Assembly (NCBI GenBank): GCA_028285755.1
Contig: JANQOQ010000008.1
Location: 443,399-507,398 of the forward strand
From: Puniceicoccaceae bacterium
Lineage (GTDB): Bacteria; Verrucomicrobiota; Verrucomicrobiia; Opitutales; JAFGAQ01
Direction of reading: 5' to 3'
Length of the DNA stretch: 64,000 nucleotides
How positions within the stretch are numbered: the first letter of the stretch is position 1; each line of letters starts with the position of its first letter. The notes under the pieces are model-generated. The model worked only from the letters and a program-made list of their open reading frames with translations, was not told where the DNA came from and ran no database searches. The translations under genes and the position numbers were made by a program. Positions 47,653 to 64,000 of the stretch are shown piece after piece.

Positions 47653-49827
47653 ATGAAATTCTCCTCCATTAAATATAAGATATTGTTGTTAGCTGTTATG
47701 TCCATCGTGGTAACTACCGTTTTCCAGCTGGTCATACTCATACTGGAACGTGCTGAAGTGGCAAAATCCACTGATAAGGCGGAAGGAAAAATAAAAGAAT
47801 TGGTGCTAACTTATGCCGAAACGGAGACATCAAAGATTGCGAATGATGTCTATCTCATGTGCCAAAGTGTTCAGAACATGTTGAATTTAGCACGGTTTCA
47901 GGACGACGCAGTATTTAAGGAGGAAACCAATGCTAAAGAACTCATGATGGCAGATCCTGAAGTGATTTCCGTATTAAGTGATAGTATTATGAATATTACT
48001 GTGGGGAAAACAGGCTATGTATACGTGCTCGGTGCTAAAGGAGAGGATAAGGGCCATTACATTATATCAATGGGTGGAACGCGAAATGGCGAAAGCATCT
48101 GGGACGCCAAAGATTCATCTGGAAATTACTTTATACAGAATGTAGTCAATTCTGCTGTTGGGCTTGATCGTCGCACAGGCAATGATATGGCATTTGTCCG
48201 CTACCCGTGGAAAAATGAGGGAGAAGCTGAAGCACGCATGAAAATCGCTGCAGTTTCTTATTTTGAAGCATGGGATTGGGTGATCGTAGCGGGTGCCTAT
48301 GAAGATGACTATCAGGATATACTACATATTGTGGAAAATGATTTCGATTACATTCATGGAGCACTCGCCAGTATGCAGAGTCAAATTCTCTATTTTTCGC
48401 TTATCTCTATTTTAGTAATTGCATGTATTGCTTACTGGCTTGCGAGCAGAATGGCGCAGCCCATTAATCATGCAGTAGAAGTCATCAAAAAGGTCACGCA
48501 AGGAGATTTGAAACAACGCCTCCGTGTGAAAACGTCTGACGAAGTAGGCGTAATATCTGATTCTATTAATCACCTCACAGAGCAACTGCAGAAAATTATT
48601 CATGAGGTTAAATCATATACCGGCACATTAAGTGTCACATCCAAGGGGTTTCTGGATAATGCCAAGCAGCTCGCTTCTGCTGAAGAGCAAATCAGTCATC
48701 AAACCGACGCAGTCGCGGTTGCAGGTCAACAGCTTTCAAGTAACGTACAAGGAGTGGCCAGTACTGCTGAGGAGTTATCTGCAGCCGCCAATAATGTGAG
48801 CGCATCGATCGAAGAAATGAGTGCATCCATTGATGAAGTCGCCTCGAATTGTGAAAAGGAAAAATGCGTTGCCGAAAGGGCTAATATTAAAGCAAAGGAA
48901 ACCTCGGAAGTAATGTCGGCATTGGGCAAGTCTGCAGACGAAATAGGGTCAGTGATTCAATTGATCAGTAATATTGCTGATCAGACCAATTTGCTTGCGC
49001 TGAATGCTACAATAGAAGCGGCAAGCGCCGGTGAAGCTGGCAAGGGGTTTGGGGTTGTCGCCACTGAGGTAAAAGAACTGGCCAGACAAAGTGCAGATGC
49101 CACAGACAAGATTTCTGCAAGTATTGAGAACATTCAGGCATGCACCCGTGACTCAGTACACCAAATTACTGAAATCACATCTGTCATTGATGAAATGTAC
49201 GAAATATCCAACAGCATAGCAGCTGCTGTGGAGCAACAAAGCGCTGCCGCAAACGAAATATCTAAAACGGTGGCAAACGTTTCTGCTGCCAGTGTTGAAT
49301 TATCGATGAGCGTTAACGAGAGCTCTTCGGCCGCCGATGAGGTCGCTCATAATATCGTTGGCGTAAGGGAAGCCTCTGCTGAGAGTGCAGTCGCCACTCT
49401 TGAGAATGAAACCACTTCCTACGATATTGCGCGTATGGCCGAAAGGCTCACTGCCATAACCTCAGGTTTTAACTCAGGTGAGGCTGCCTTCAATATCGCT
49501 GAGATTAAGAGTGCTCACATGCAGTGGGTATCACGCTTAAGTCGGGTGATGCTCGGTAAACTCGATATGAAGAGCGAAGAGGTGGCCTCAGACCAGGAAT
49601 GTGCATTTGGCAAATGGTTTTACAGTGACGCGGGTAAAAGTATGTCCAAACATCCGGCTTATGCTGAAGTAGAAAAACATCATAGCAAAATACACAGTAT
49701 CGCTCGCGAAATCGTTGGCTTGATCGAGAACAACCGTAAGGATAAAGCTGAGCTTATGATGCATGATTTTGAGGAAACCCGACGGTCTTTGTTTCTCTCC
49801 CTGGATCAGCTCTATACGGCGTATTAG
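47653..49827 (+). CDS. Chemoreceptor with Cache sensor and C-terminal CZB zinc domain (copy 1)
   Basis: The 724-aa receptor has TM1 at about 9-28 and an extracytoplasmic sCache-type domain to about 240 ([28 protein letters not shown]). TM2 is near 245-265, then HAMP and the signalling domain with tip [22 protein letters not shown]-terminal CZB domain runs from about 620, with candidate zinc ligands H622, C650, H677 and H681. CZB domains bind zinc through a redox-sensitive Cys and report hypochlorite or zinc. The next gene is a paralogue of the same layout, so the pair arose by tandem duplication. No che genes are in the window. Confidence 0.93.
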   Translation: MKFSSIKYKILLLAVMSIVVTTVFQLVILILERAEVAKSTDKAEGKIKELVLTYAETETSKIANDVYLMCQSVQNMLNLARFQDDAVFKEETNAKELMMADPEVISVLSDSIMNITVGKTGYVYVLGAKGEDKGHYIISMGGTRNGESIWDAKDSSGNYFIQNVVNSAVGLDRRTGNDMAFVRYPWKNEGEAEARMKIAAVSYFEAWDWVIVAGAYEDDYQDILHIVENDFDYIHGALASMQSQILYFSLISILVIACIAYWLASRMAQPINHAVEVIKKVTQGDLKQRLRVKTSDEVGVISDSINHLTEQLQKIIHEVKSYTGTLSVTSKGFLDNAKQLASAEEQISHQTDAVAVAGQQLSSNVQGVASTAEELSAAANNVSASIEEMSASIDEVASNCEKEKCVAERANIKAKETSEVMSALGKSADEIGSVIQLISNIADQTNLLALNATIEAASAGEAGKGFGVVATEVKELARQSADATDKISASIENIQACTRDSVHQITEITSVIDEMYEISNSIAAAVEQQSAAANEISKTVANVSAASVELSMSVNESSSAADEVAHNIVGVREASAESAVATLENETTSYDIARMAERLTAITSGFNSGEAAFNIAEIKSAHMQWVSRLSRVMLGKLDMKSEEVASDQECAFGKWFYSDAGKSMSKHPAYAEVEKHHSKIHSIAREIVGLIENNRKDKAELMMHDFEETRRSLFLSLDQLYTAY

Positions 49828-50063
49828 CATAGCATTCCACGACTGCTTTTTAGGGGGCGATATCATCCGCGTGGGTAGATCTTTATGTGGGTTACCAACC
49901 AAATTCCATTGCTAATCTTGTCGATAAGATCCTCTAATGTCGGGGTGGATTATTTCGTATATCAAAATAATGAATTAGTGAAAAACTACGGGTTTAAATA
50001 GGGATTTTCATAAATTGCCACATTCATTAAGGTGTCTTCTTTGTTCATATAGAAATCCTTAAA

Positions 50064-50079
50064 GTTACAATATTGTAAC
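50064..50079. promoter_or_regulatory. Perfect 16-bp palindrome before the second Cache-CZB receptor
   Basis: GTTACAATATTGTAAC is its own reverse complement and ends 18 bp before the ATG. It contains TACAAT, a plausible -10 element, so a bound dimeric regulator would block the promoter. Its core ACAATATTGTAA recurs at 33740-33751. No such site precedes the first copy of the receptor. Confidence 0.5.
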
Positions 50080-50097
50080 GTCGAATGTTCCTACATT

Positions 50098-52239
50098 ATG
50101 AAGGACTTATCGATTAAATACAAAATCGTAATACTCGTTGTCGCGACTGTTGTCATCACCACACTATTGCAAATGGCTCTCTTGGTCTATGAGAAAAACG
50201 AGGTGCAGCACTCCACAGATTTAGCTGAAGAAAAATACAACGAAATTGTGATGGGGTATGCGGAAACGGTAACCGCAAAAATCGCAAAAGATGTATACCT
50301 CATGTGCCAAAGCGTGAAGGATATCGTTCAAAAACAAGGCAACCACCAATCCGTAGAGTCAATAGCAAAGGATCCTGAAGTATTCGATACTTTGAGCGAG
50401 AAGATGATGGAAGTGGTTGTGGGTAAGACCGGCTACGTATTTGTGCTGGGGGCTAAGGGGGATGACCGTGGCCACTATATTATTTCTCATCAAGGCAAAC
50501 GAAACGGTGAGAATATCTGGTCTGCTCAGGATTCGTCGGGAAAATATTTTATACAGGATATGGTAAACAAGGCACTCAATTTGAGCCCCGAAACCGGGAA
50601 TGCGATCGATTACATCCACTATCCCTGGCAAAATGCAGGTGAGCCGGAACCGCGTATGAAATTGGCTGCAATCACGTATATGCCTGAGTGGGATTGGGTA
50701 ATTGTTGCAGGCGCATATGAAGACGATTACACCGAAATGCTTAGTGTAGGCACAGAATTCAACAGCATTCGTGATTCTCTGTCCCTGATGCAATGGATAT
50801 TCATCATTGCGGGGGTTGTATCAACCCTGGTCTTTGCGTGGGTCGGGTATATCATGGCGGGAATTCTGGTGAGGCCATTGAAGAAGGCTGTTAAGACGAT
50901 TCAGAAGGTTACAAAAGGAGATTTAACCGAGCGCGTAGATGTTGATAGTAAAGATGAAGTGGGCGTTATCGCGCTCTCATTCAATCAATTGGTTGATCAA
51001 TTGCAGGCTATTATCCACGAAGTAAAATCCTATTCGGGGACCCTTAAGATTACGGCTTCTTCCTTATTGGATAATGCAGAGCAATTGGCTACAGCAGATG
51101 AACAGATCGGTAATCAAACCAACGCAGTAGCAGCAGCGGGAGAGGAACTGTCGGTTAACATTAATAGCGTAGCTACCACTGCTGAAGAATTATCTGTTTC
51201 CGCAAACAATGTTGCTGCGTCTATAGAAGAAATGAGCGCTTCGATTAATGAAGTCGCCTCCAACTGCGAGAAGGAGAAAAATGTCGCTGAAAAAGCGAGT
51301 TTAAAGGCGAAAGAAACTTCTGAGGTGATGACCTCATTGGGCAAATCGGCCGAACAGATTGGTTCGATCGTTCAATTGATTAATAGTATCGCCAGTCAGA
51401 CCAATCTACTCGCATTGAACGCCACTATCGAAGCGGCAAGCGCAGGTGAAGCGGGAAAAGGCTTTGCGGTAGTCGCCAGTGAGGTTAAAGAATTGGCCAA
51501 ACAAAGCGCAGATGCCACGGAGCAGATAGATGCCAGTATTCAGGGAATACAGGATTCGATCCGAAACTCTGTCGATCAAATAGTGGAAATAAATGAGGTC
51601 ATTGATGAGGTTTACGAAATTTCCAATAGCATTGCCGCTGCCATTGAACAACAAAGCTCGACTACCAATGAGATAGCCAGAACAGTAAATAATGTTTCGG
51701 AAGCGAGTGTAGAACTCTCCAGGAATGTCAATGAAAGCTCTAATGCTTCGAGTGAAGTGTCTCAAAACATTCTGGGCGTAAAGCATGCCATGGCGGACAC
51801 CAGTATCGCAATGACTCAAAACAAAACGACTTCTTTCGACATTACCCGTATGTCGGATAGGCTCGCTGATTTGACTTCAGGCTTCAATTCCGGGCAAGCC
51901 TCTTTCGATATAGCCGAAATTAAGCAAAAACATATGCAATGGGTGAGCCGTTTGAATGGAGTCATTTTGGGCAAAGTCAAAATGAGTTCAAATGAAGTCG
52001 CCTCAGATACTGAGTGTGATTTTGGAAAATGGTTCTACAGTGAAGAAGGGAAATCATTCTCTGATCATGCCGCCTATGCTGATGTGGAAAAGCACCATCA
52101 CCGAGTGCATGAGATCGCACTGGAAGTGGTAAGTCTAGTTGAAAACCATCAAAACGACAATGCTAAGGAGCGAATGTCCGATTTTGAAGATGCGCGCCGT
52201 TCACTGTTTGTTTCCCTGGATAATCTTTATGCTGCTTAA
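50098..52239 (+). CDS. Chemoreceptor with Cache sensor and C-terminal CZB zinc domain (copy 2)
   Basis: The 713-aa protein has the same architecture as its upstream neighbour: TM1, extracytoplasmic Cache domain ([28 protein letters not shown]), TM2, HAMP, signalling hairpin and CZB domain. Candidate zinc ligands are H612, C640, H667 and H671. Cytoplasmic parts are nearly alike in the two copies, while the sensor domains differ more, for example in the loop before the Cache core. Ligand specificity may therefore have diverged while downstream signalling stayed shared. A 16-bp palindrome sits in the promoter region of this copy only. Confidence 0.93.
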
Positions 52240-55801: not shown

Positions 55802-56299
55802 TTAGGGTAACTCATTAGCTGCAAGCAGAGCAACCGGGAGGTTCCTGTCTTCCCGAATGACTCCGACAGCCACTGCGTATATGAGATCCTCCCCGACGGG
55901 GAATGGATCTTTAACCAGATTATTGTCACCCTTGGTGGTTAAATATAATCTGTTTCTGTATACGACCCGATGGCATACGAGGGTAGGATTCTCTTTCCGG
56001 CTGGAAGGATCGCGAAACAGGACAATATCGCCGATCCGGATATCCTCGAACTCATAATCTTTCGTATAAAGAACCAGATCATAATCCAATAGCGTCGGAA
56101 CCATTGAGCCTGTGGGTGCTAACAATGCACCATAGAGTTTACCCGTGTTGGGTAACAGTTTCAGGGGTTCCGATGGGCCAACCAGCGAGGAAGCCGGGTT
56201 GACCGGAAGCGCTGTGTTGTGTGTAGGATTCCGATGAGATACACACCCCAACAGCAGCATTGAAAGGGCAAGCGCCCCGACAAGTCCATAGTATTTCAT
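55802..56299 (-). CDS. Lipoprotein with S24/S26 signal-peptidase-like domain
   Basis: The 165-aa protein begins with a lipoprotein signal (LLLGC, lipid Cys19). Its C-terminal part has the S26 pattern: nucleophile Ser65 in PTGSMVPTL, IRIGDIVLFRDP, His110 in LVCHRVVY and TTKGDNN. The Ser/His arrangement recalls the S26B (SipW/Sec11) type rather than the Ser/Lys bacterial LepB. Signal peptidases are normally anchored by TM helices, so a lipid anchor is unusual and would place the protein in the periplasm or outer membrane. Its substrate is unknown. It is transcribed toward a strong terminator. Confidence 0.72.
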   Translation of the reverse strand: MKYYGLVGALALSMLLLGCVSHRNPTHNTALPVNPASSLVGPSEPLKLLPNTGKLYGALLAPTGSMVPTLLDYDLVLYTKDYEFEDIRIGDIVLFRDPSSRKENPTLVCHRVVYRNRLYLTTKGDNNLVKDPFPVGEDLIYAVAVGVIREDRNLPVALLAANELP

Positions 56300-61118: not shown

Positions 61119-64000
61119 TTAACGAATACGGTTCAATGCGTTTCGTGTAAATAGATTTTCCTCCAGGCCTTGAGAAAAGACGTAGTCGTTGAATTGCAGT
61201 TCGGTGGATTTTCCGGTTTGGTGATTCACCATGGTAAACTTATCCGCACGCCAGTGCTTGTCCTTATACTGCTGGTAGCCGGACATGGTCAGCGTCTTCA
61301 GGAGCTCGTTCTTGCGATCGTAGAACTCAGTTTTGATCGTGCGGTAGTGCTCCTTGTCGATCCAGACCAACTGCTTGGTATATCCGCTGTTTTCGTCAAC
61401 AGGAGTGAACTCCACCAAATAGCAATCCTGGCCATCAACCACTTCGTCTCGCAGGTAGATGTATGTGTATTTCTCCACTTCCTGGGAAGCGAGGTCCTCA
61501 TAGGCAAACTCACTGCCAACAAAAGGCCCTGATTGGTTATTGGAAGCGATACGCTTTACACGTCTCAGGGCGGGTAAATACAGCCACTGATCATCATCCT
61601 TTTCCTTGTAGGTGTAGCTTAAAAAGGCGGTGCCTTCCACATCGCGTGGACTGTCAAATACGGAAAGTCGCTTATCCCCTTCGTCTTCGGTCTCCAGTGA
61701 CATGAAACGCATCTCGCGTGTCGAGGATTGCCCATGTCGATTGGTAAGCACCATGTAAAGTGATGCGCTCCAGTCCCCGTATCCGGCGTCCCTGAGGTCC
61801 GCCTCGCGTGCAATCGCAAGCCCTTTCTCTTCTGGAGTTTCTGCCTGCACATCCGGCGTGAATGCCAGTAGCGAGATCGCTGCCAGGGCGATCGCGGAAG
61901 CACCCGCCAGGCCTGGCTTGGCAAAGCTTCCCCCAAGTGTTTTTACAGTATGTGTCTTTTTATCGAATATCATAAGAAAAGCAGGTAAGAATAAGAAATC
62001 AAAGATCAGGGCTGCAGCGATGATGATTGCCGTAAGCTGCCCCATCCACGAGTTAAGCTGGAAAGTGGAAGTGCCTAAAAGCAGGAAGCCGACCGTCAAC
62101 ACCAGAGTGGTAACCACGAGCGCACGTCCCACCGTCGCAAATGCATAACGGATGGCATCCTCAGCATTATAGCCCTTCTCACGGCGTGCCCTTAGGTATT
62201 TGGATAGGAAGTGCACGGTATCATCCACCACTATCCCGAGTGTCATCCCCAGTACGGGAGCAATGGACATACCGATCTGCCCCCGGAAGAGTGCCCAGAT
62301 TCCGAGCCCGATGGCCATCGGTGCCAGGTTCGGTATGAGGCTGAATGCGCCCATGCGAACGCTGCGCAATACCAGCGCGAGCACAAATGAGATGATGAAA
62401 ATCGCAATGGTGGTGCCGATGACCATGCTCTCCACGTTGCGCTTGGAGATGTATACAAACATCGTGATGGGGCTCGAAGGCAGCGAATGAAACGTTTCGG
62501 GAGTATTTTGAATCAACCAGGCGTCCGCGCGATCGATGAGACTGCGGATTTCCTGGGTAGTTTGGTCCTTAAGCGTAACCGTCATGCGGGTGGCCGATTT
62601 ATCCACATTGATCTGGTTATTGAGATCCAGGCCATAGGGCAGAGACATTTCAAACAGCAGCAGGTATTGGGCGGCAAGGTCACGCTCATCGGGTATGCGG
62701 AAGTAGCTTTCGTCATCCCCGTGCATGTTTTTGTTCAATCGCTTCATCGTGTCTGCGAGTGAATTTACCTGCACCACTTCCGGCTGACCACGCATCCAGA
62801 CTGCAAAGTTTTCCAGATGAGTCAGATAATCCGGATTGCTGATCCCTCCCGATTCTCCGGAGCTCAGGTTGTAATCCAGATTATAGAATCCGGTGAGGTG
62901 TTCAGTGATAAAATCGGTATCCTGACGGAATTCGGTAGCCTCGCTGAAATACTGAACAAATTGGTCATTGAGCTTATTCATGGGTAGGAATAGCGCCAGC
63001 CCAACAGTTACGATCGTCGTCATTATCAACACGGGGGTCTTCCAGCGAATGACCCATTCCGCGAAACCTGTGGTCTCCTTAACTTCGCCTTCCCGGATGC
63101 GGCTTCTTGCCTTAATCGGAAATAGCGAAAGCAGAACTGGCAAGAGCACGATTGAGAAGAACCAGGCGGCCGTCACTCCTACGGCTACGATATTTCCCAG
63201 GTCACGGTAGGGAGGTGAATCGCTGAAATTAAGGCTCAGAAAACCGATGACCGTGGTTAAGCTGGTGATGGTGATCGGCTGGAAGTTGATGCGCATACTT
63301 TCCTTGATCGCTTCGTTGCGTGTCTTGCCTGTTCTGAGATTTTGAATAAAGGTAATCAGGAAATGAACGCTATCGGCGACCGCCAGAGTCATCACCATGA
63401 TGGGAATTGAACTCGTAACGCCATTCATCGACATACCCAGCCAGCCCAGGGTGCCCATGGCGATCATCGTGGATGTAATGATAATGATCACTGTTGCCAC
63501 AGTGCTTAGCATAGACCGCAGCAGGATCAGCAGCATAATAATGATAGCCAGATACATGAGGGGTATGAGCGTGCTCATATCCCGCATAGCGGATTGGCTG
63601 AAGGCGCTGTTTAGCATGGCAGTACCTGTGAGCTTCACCTGCATCCCCAGGTGCTGCGTTTCGATGCGGTCTCCCAGCTCACGAGCTGCAGCCGCGACGA
63701 TATCTGCTTCGTTCATATCCTTACCCGGAAACAGAAGCGTGACTGCCACCGCTGCTGTATTCGGGTCTTCACTGATGGCCCGGTTCCAGATGATGGGTTC
63801 ATTGCGCGCGACGTTCTCGATTTTATCGAGATCCGCTTGCGTCAGATTTTCCGGATTTGGGACGAGATCCTCAACAATCAGATCATCCTCAAAGGCTTCG
63901 GTATTTTGAAAATTGGTGAGCGAGTCCACCCGGGTGGAAAAGGGGAGCTTCCAGGCCTCATCGGTTGTGTATGCGATGGTTGCAATAAAAGACTGGCTGT
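61119..64000 (-). CDS. MMPL/RND exporter fused to a C-terminal LolA-like domain (5' end beyond window)
   Basis: About 959 residues are visible; the frame runs past 64000 (KLPFSTRVDSLTNFQ precedes the first ATG/GTG-type codon near 63929), so the N terminus is cut off. The exporter part has two sets of TM helices with sterol-sensing-type segments (ADSVHFLITFIQ and DDTVHFLSKYLR). From about 61910 a hydrophobic stretch ending TPDVQA resembles a signal peptide. A 240-aa periplasmic domain (61122-61841) of the outer-membrane lipoprotein-sorting (LolA-like) type follows, with WLYLPALRRVKRI. In relatives the two parts are usually separate genes. It probably moves lipid-like molecules to the outer membrane. 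Confidence 0.85.
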   Translation of the reverse strand, partial: SQSFIATIAYTTDEAWKLPFSTRVDSLTNFQNTEAFEDDLIVEDLVPNPENLTQADLDKIENVARNEPIIWNRAISEDPNTAAVAVTLLFPGKDMNEADIVAAAARELGDRIETQHLGMQVKLTGTAMLNSAFSQSAMRDMSTLIPLMYLAIIIMLLILLRSMLSTVATVIIIITSTMIAMGTLGWLGMSMNGVTSSIPIMVMTLAVADSVHFLITFIQNLRTGKTRNEAIKESMRINFQPITITSLTTVIGFLSLNFSDSPPYRDLGNIVAVGVTAAWFFSIVLLPVLLSLFPIKARSRIREGEVKETTGFAEWVIRWKTPVLIMTTIVTVGLALFLPMNKLNDQFVQYFSEATEFRQDTDFITEHLTGFYNLDYNLSSGESGGISNPDYLTHLENFAVWMRGQPEVVQVNSLADTMKRLNKNMHGDDESYFRIPDERDLAAQYLLLFEMSLPYGLDLNNQINVDKSATRMTVTLKDQTTQEIRSLIDRADAWLIQNTPETFHSLPSSPITMFVYISKRNVESMVIGTTIAIFIISFVLALVLRSVRMGAFSLIPNLAPMAIGLGIWALFRGQIGMSIAPVLGMTLGIVVDDTVHFLSKYLRARREKGYNAEDAIRYAFATVGRALVVTTLVLTVGFLLLGTSTFQLNSWMGQLTAIIIAAALIFDFLFLPAFLMIFDKKTHTVKTLGGSFAKPGLAGASAIALAAISLLAFTPDVQAETPEEKGLAIAREADLRDAGYGDWSASLYMVLTNRHGQSSTREMRFMSLETEDEGDKRLSVFDSPRDVEGTAFLSYTYKEKDDDQWLYLPALRRVKRIASNNQSGPFVGSEFAYEDLASQEVEKYTYIYLRDEVVDGQDCYLVEFTPVDENSGYTKQLVWIDKEHYRTIKTEFYDRKNELLKTLTMSGYQQYKDKHWRADKFTMVNHQTGKSTELQFNDYVFSQGLEENLFTRNALNRIR

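Follow-up and report, generated by a model that had tools for sequence, protein, structure and literature searches.

The window, by which we mean the whole stretch of 64,000 nucleotides analyzed here, encodes on its minus strand an S26-like peptidase with a predicted lipoprotein signal (P0001, Table 1). The coordinates given in the sequence-only reading do hold this open reading frame; no strand was named there, and the minus strand is new. The Met1-Lys2 start of P0001 is shared by a syntenic relative from another Opitutales genome (G004), which is 51% identical to P0001. The gene stands alone, with a thioredoxin-like gene convergent on one side and, on the other, a divergent gene that we take from its sequence to be mutS. 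An operon with a substrate gene was rejected on this arrangement, and inspection of the locus, partly by eye, revealed no conserved substrate-like or regulator neighbor. Scans for promoters and terminators gave nothing clearly above chance. A mobile origin was also rejected, since searches of plasmids and phages came back empty at E ≤ 0.01 and viral contigs contained no relative.

Table 1 Features of the P0001 gene and its convergent neighbor in the window.
Feature	Coordinates	Strand	Details
S26-like lipoprotein peptidase CDS (P0001)	55802..56299	-	165 aa; ATG 56299, stop 55802
Signal peptide of lipoprotein type (predicted), residues 1-18 (MKYYGLVGALALSMLLLG)	56246..56299	-	From lipobox pattern and hydropathy; genome has Lgt and LspA
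Cys19 codon, predicted lipidated mature N-terminus; +2 = Val	56243..56245	-	Kept in syntenic relative
Linker, residues 20-57 (~38 residues)	56129..56242	-	Less conserved than core
S26 core, residues 58-149	55853..56128	-	Limits by eye from profile matches
Ser65 codon, predicted nucleophile (PTGSMVPT)	56105..56107	-	S in 149/151 family members
His110 codon, predicted general base (VCHRVV)	55970..55972	-	H in 151/151
Asp125 codon (KGDNN)	55925..55927	-	D in only 24/151
Asp131 codon, predicted third catalytic residue	55907..55909	-	D in 150/151
Thioredoxin-like protein (Thioredoxin_7/_2), convergent neighbor of the P0001 gene	54865..55758	+	Signal-like N-terminus by eye

The gene order in G004 runs from the S26 gene through a DMT-like gene (by eye) to a thioredoxin-like gene whose product is 33% identical to that of the window. 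Beyond the thioredoxin-like gene, both loci continue with TauE- and YraN-like genes (by eye), of which those in the window are confirmed by Pfam (TauE and UPF0102/YraN). The DMT-like gene is inserted in G004 relative to the window, and the other flank of the S26 gene differs between the two. A close relative of P0001 was found only in G004 among the four other genomes of its taxonomic family, the rest holding more distant members. By eye, the thioredoxin-like protein has a hydrophobic stretch at its C-terminus in addition to a WCGWC motif, and it is encoded near an S26 lipoprotein gene in two genomes. Elsewhere in the window are two adjacent genes for similar proteins, by eye methyl-accepting chemotaxis-like with a C-terminal extension (47653..52239, plus strand), and a gene for a 757-residue protein with PASTA domains (PF03793; 3327..5600, minus strand).

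We compared P0001 to profiles of the S26 and S24 peptidases. Pfam Peptidase_S26 (PF10502) scored 26.6 bits against a cut-off of 22.9, and the archaeal-type signal peptidase model TIGR02228 reached 50.8 bits (1.6e-13), just under its cut-off of 51.85, which leaves P0001 outside that equivalog. The NCBIfam model of bacterial signal peptidase, TIGR02227, came behind (6.1e-7, 29.4 bits, cut-off 47), and PF00717 (Peptidase_S24) gave no match to P0001 itself. At the level of sequence profiles the S26 core is therefore real, with Ser65 and His110 where the sequence-only reading had placed them; Asp131 and Asp125 are our additions. Searched singly against solved structures, P0001 matched SEC11A at 0.0027, and a nine-sequence profile of P0001 and eight relatives matched SEC11A at 7.1e-12 and SEC11C at 1.2e-11. 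In the SEC11A alignment the counterpart of Asp131 is the second Asp following KGDNN, presumably the catalytic Asp of that enzyme. These profile and structure-sequence matches indicate that P0001 is of the Ser-His type found in the ER, archaea and SipW, not of the usual bacterial Ser-Lys type, a contrast among signal peptidases drawn in PMC10269814. An AlphaFold model built from two sequences (the window protein and L045) had a pLDDT of 44.2; Foldseek returned nothing for it at E ≤ 0.001, and the hits at E ≥ 0.2, mostly ATPases and ribosomal proteins, were treated as meaningless.

The triad is nearly invariant in the family. The two exceptions at Ser65 are one Asp and one truncated frame, and the single exception at Asp131 is a Glu. 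The member with Asp at the Ser position has a lipobox and is possibly an inactive form (L035:1492-2214, minus strand). His occupies the S26B base position, which we take to be the position of Lys in LexA/UmuD, in 151/151 members, so the Ser-Lys dyad of S24 peptidases is absent. In SEC11A the S1 pocket is formed by Met57, Phe61, Val52 and Val95, as described in PMC13385932, and in an alignment read by eye these correspond to Met66, Leu70, Ala61 and Cys109 of P0001; position 66 is Met in 149 of the 151 members. The equivalence suggests that P0001 may prefer small residues at P1 and P3. Cys109 adjoins His110 and is, besides Cys19, the sole Cys of the mature protein, a Cys being found at this position in 10/151 members. 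Redox control of Cys109 by the neighboring thioredoxin-like protein is only an idea.

The lipobox ALALSMLLLGC (residues 9-19) fits PROSITE pattern PS51257 in the form that we take it to have. The signal peptide is short, with one Lys, and has the n-region, h-region and lipobox of a lipoprotein signal. Gly18-Cys19 is retained at the same position in the syntenic relative, and the LLGC lipobox with Cys19 seen in the sequence alone is thus borne out by both pattern and conservation. The genome of the window encodes Lgt (6.1e-65) and LspA (1.7e-36), and a search of it for classical LolA (PF03548) found none. A study that characterizes a verrucomicrobial lipoprotein reports that lolA and lolB are absent from one Verrucomicrobiota group, while other Verrucomicrobiota have LolA without LolB (PMC10260701). 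As a separate observation, the window encodes an RND/MMPL-type exporter fused to a C-terminal LolA_like domain (PF17131, 1.2e-66; 61119..63929, minus strand). In a genome with no PF03548 match, such a fusion could be relevant to the transport of lipoproteins or lipids.

In P0001, hydropathy over 19 residues peaks at residues 3-21, with a Kyte-Doolittle mean of 1.78, and windows starting after residue 25 do not exceed 1.09. The only hydrophobic segment is the signal peptide, and no TM anchor like that of S26B enzymes is seen beyond it. It could be argued that P0001 is an S26B protease held by a single uncleaved TM helix, its lipobox being accidental, and the value of 1.78 would indeed pass for a marginal TM helix. 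The sequence-only reading had named an uncleaved helix as one of two findings that would overturn it, the other being a lack of the S26 fold, against which the sequence profiles speak. Only 18 residues precede Cys19, however, this Cys is kept at 51% identity, and many relatives have canonical lipoboxes, though the tree described below forces few separate origins for them. We therefore regard an uncleaved anchor as quite improbable. The same genome also holds an ordinary signal peptidase I, a 417-residue frame with hydropathy up to 2.49, which by eye is of the Ser-Lys type with a strong hydrophobic helix.

Next, we explored the extent of the family. With P0001 alone as query, 8 of 52 relative genomes matched, its own included. 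A 15-row profile matched at least 77/372 genomes of the order, at least 62/286 in a search of the class and 5/5 of the taxonomic family, counts that are no full census since at most 10 to 16 candidates were scored per genome. We kept 151 distinct members from 179 matches in fetched loci, and 149 of them are from Opitutales. Outside the order, the class search matched two genomes at 4.7e-18 and 3.6e-14; the remaining matches, at 3.7e-7 or weaker, were partial and are taken as probable ordinary signal peptidases. Of the 90 genomes matched when the phylum was searched, 56 lay outside the class. None of 20 fetched matches from these has an N-terminal hydrophobic segment by scan and eye, the only window found lying inside the core (L170), although the scan is not strict and also finds no window in 18/60 family members. 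Because they lack this segment and some are fused, we take these frames to be of a different kind. They are S26-like frames with no evident export signal (L166-L185), and the fused examples, such as L171, L179 and L182, have partners that are presumably nucleotidyltransferase- or PqqD-like.

All 60 members chosen for comparison match TIGR02228 at E ≤ 0.01, 45 match the SipW model (NF046067) at the same threshold and 37 match PF00717. In none of the 60 does a hydrophobic window of 19 residues begin beyond residue 50, which argues that they have no TM helix beyond the export signal. Thus, the earlier proposal of a lipid-anchored S26-type form is supported as regards the predicted anchor, the catalytic residues and the distinction from the TM-anchored signal peptidase I, and the action suggested there, on exported proteins or on itself, would be a putative function. 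P0001 is no isolated oddity, for it belongs to a large family drawn mostly from Opitutales.

Family members differ in their predicted anchor. A strict lipobox rule, which adds conditions on start codon, charge and hydrophobicity, classed 57/151 members as lipoproteins, 4 more weakly and 90 not. Among the other genes of the fetched loci, 640 in all and none of them S26, the same rule selected 19, and in the window it selected 3 of the 51 genes, P0001 among them, so the lipobox is more frequent in the family than expected by chance. Asp does not occur at +2 in any of 56 members labelled lipidated by the strict rule. For a tree of 150 sequences, we dropped one truncated frame, moved eight members by eye to the lipidated class and L003 to the free class, giving 68 lipidated and 82 free, where free denotes the lack of a lipobox and most such members show an ordinary export signal by eye. 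In this quick tree of 94 columns, with many forks unresolved, a minimum of 11 label changes is needed, where shuffled labels average close to 50, and well-supported branches force only three changes.

Where a locus holds two members, they are nearly always of different form. A lipidated and a free member are paired in 27/28 such loci, which are interrelated and not independent, and likewise in 23 of 24 divergent close pairs; the exception among the 28 is L061, with two free members. Six of the 27 lipidated labels are weak or by eye (L004; L068, L073, L076, L081, L083), and the strict rule alone gives 21/28. P0001 pairs with its syntenic relative in the tree (97), then with L097 (87), and falls in a branch of 20 rows (91), separate from the majority of the paired members.

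We examined the neighbors of the S26 genes in 80 loci (L060-L139). In 27/80, a LuxR-type response regulator of one close subfamily (>280 bits) is encoded no more than 250 bp from the S26 frame, with distances taken between open frames and from stop to stop for S26 frames. The examples scanned have Response_reg and GerE domains. A slightly more distant LuxR-type regulator is found at 884 bp in L079 and a more distant one at 20 bp in L139. No further regulator match above 200 bits was found in the flanks of these loci, up to ~4 kb a side, and the remaining loci have no regulator, or other two-component genes that are further off or of a different kind. The paralogue of P0001 in its own genome (L011) lies 116 bp from a response-regulator gene of another type: its product carries an HD domain and is not LuxR-like, and the gene comes after a kinase-like one. 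A two-component link was looked for at the P0001 locus and none was found. Since P0001 lacks such a neighbor and its branch is apart, the regulator link speaks for the family and not directly for P0001.

These arrangements might indicate that the S26 core serves for a single cleavage of itself or a partner, or for binding only, for example as a sensor or switch in the periplasm that is coupled to a two-component system. Self-cleavage has a precedent in LexA/UmuD, members often adjoin response-regulator or histidine-kinase genes, and the regular pairing of lipidated and free paralogues would suit such a device. The near-invariance of the triad across 151 members is instead as expected of an enzyme, and the P0001 gene has no two-component neighbor. 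We give the idea of a switch little credence.

We propose, with moderate confidence, that P0001 is a lipid-tethered periplasmic serine endopeptidase acting on dedicated envelope substrates and not a housekeeping signal peptidase. The proposal builds on the computed gene and its lipobox, the conservation of the triad, the family, the synteny with one relative and the presence of the processing enzymes. P0001 would be exported by Sec, after which Lgt would lipidate Cys19 and LspA would cut, and its soluble core would hang on the ~38-residue linker on the periplasmic side of a membrane. There, Ser65, activated by His110 and Asp131, would attack after small residues at A-x-A-like sites. Lipidation, activity, small-residue specificity, the membrane location and an envelope substrate are what we consider most likely for P0001, judging from its sequence and its relatives. 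In SEC11A the h-region of the signal peptide is held in a membrane window, partly by the enzyme's own TM helix (PMC13385932). P0001 lacks a SEC11-like helix. It is therefore unlikely to process signal peptides in general, and a better guess is that it acts on dedicated envelope substrates. The genome already has a general signal peptidase.

P0001 could instead be a dedicated signal peptidase at the outer face of the inner membrane, in which the lipid replaces the TM helix and only a few specific preproteins are cut. Its closest characterized relatives are signal peptidases, and many chosen members match the SipW model, P0001 itself lying far below the cut-off. SipW, as described in PMC10269814, offers the precedent of a dedicated ER-type peptidase, for TasA in Bacillus. 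However, TM1 and the other membrane parts that hold the h-region in SEC11A (PMC13385932) are missing here, 82/150 members have no lipobox label, and by eye no candidate substrate gene adjoins P0001. The lack of Asp at +2 would also point to the outer membrane by the E. coli rule, which may not hold in these bacteria. We consider a dedicated signal peptidase rather unlikely, and prefer the lipid-tethered endopeptidase.

S26 signal peptidases are seen as working in the inner (or ER) membrane, where TM helices position them. Among the open-licence PMC papers returned by our searches, no title or abstract opening dealt with a lipid-anchored or TM-less exported signal peptidase. A family with a near-invariant Ser-His-Asp triad in which a lipid, or nothing at all, has taken the place of the helix suggests that the core is usable elsewhere in the envelope, and makes what the TM helix adds to specificity testable. 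The pairs of lipidated and free paralogues, often beside response regulators, suggest regulated proteolysis in Opitutales, of which the same searches yielded no description. More tentatively, we raise the possibility that the core was freed of its helix and duplicated into lipid-tethered and diffusing forms, often beside a LuxR-type regulator, as a system of regulated envelope proteolysis. If so, the same chemistry would operate at the membrane surface and in the periplasmic space, perhaps under the LuxR-type regulator, and P0001 would be a lipid-tethered member that stands alone and branches deeply.

Comparison with known systems places P0001 among, and apart from, several peptidase types. 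It has in common with SEC11 and archaeal signal peptidase I (MEROPS S26B, TIGR02228) the GSM-P motif, the His base, KGDNN and the trailing Asp. In contrast to these enzymes, it has a lipobox and no TM helix beyond the export signal, scores below the curated cut-off of TIGR02228 and is not known as part of a complex. As with P0001, Bacillus SipW (NF046067) is a Ser-His enzyme whose host encodes an ordinary Ser-Lys signal peptidase as well, which makes an accessory role plausible, but P0001 reaches only 24.1 bits against the SipW cut-off of 190, and SipW is membrane-anchored. Bacterial signal peptidase I (LepB, TIGR02227) shares the superfamily and the motif around Ser, but has a Ser-Lys dyad and TM helices, and the genome of the window has its own copy. 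Finally, LexA/UmuD (PF00717) resemble the family through the PF00717 matches of 37/60 chosen members; they are cytoplasmic and are described as Ser-Lys proteins, whereas P0001 has His and an export signal.
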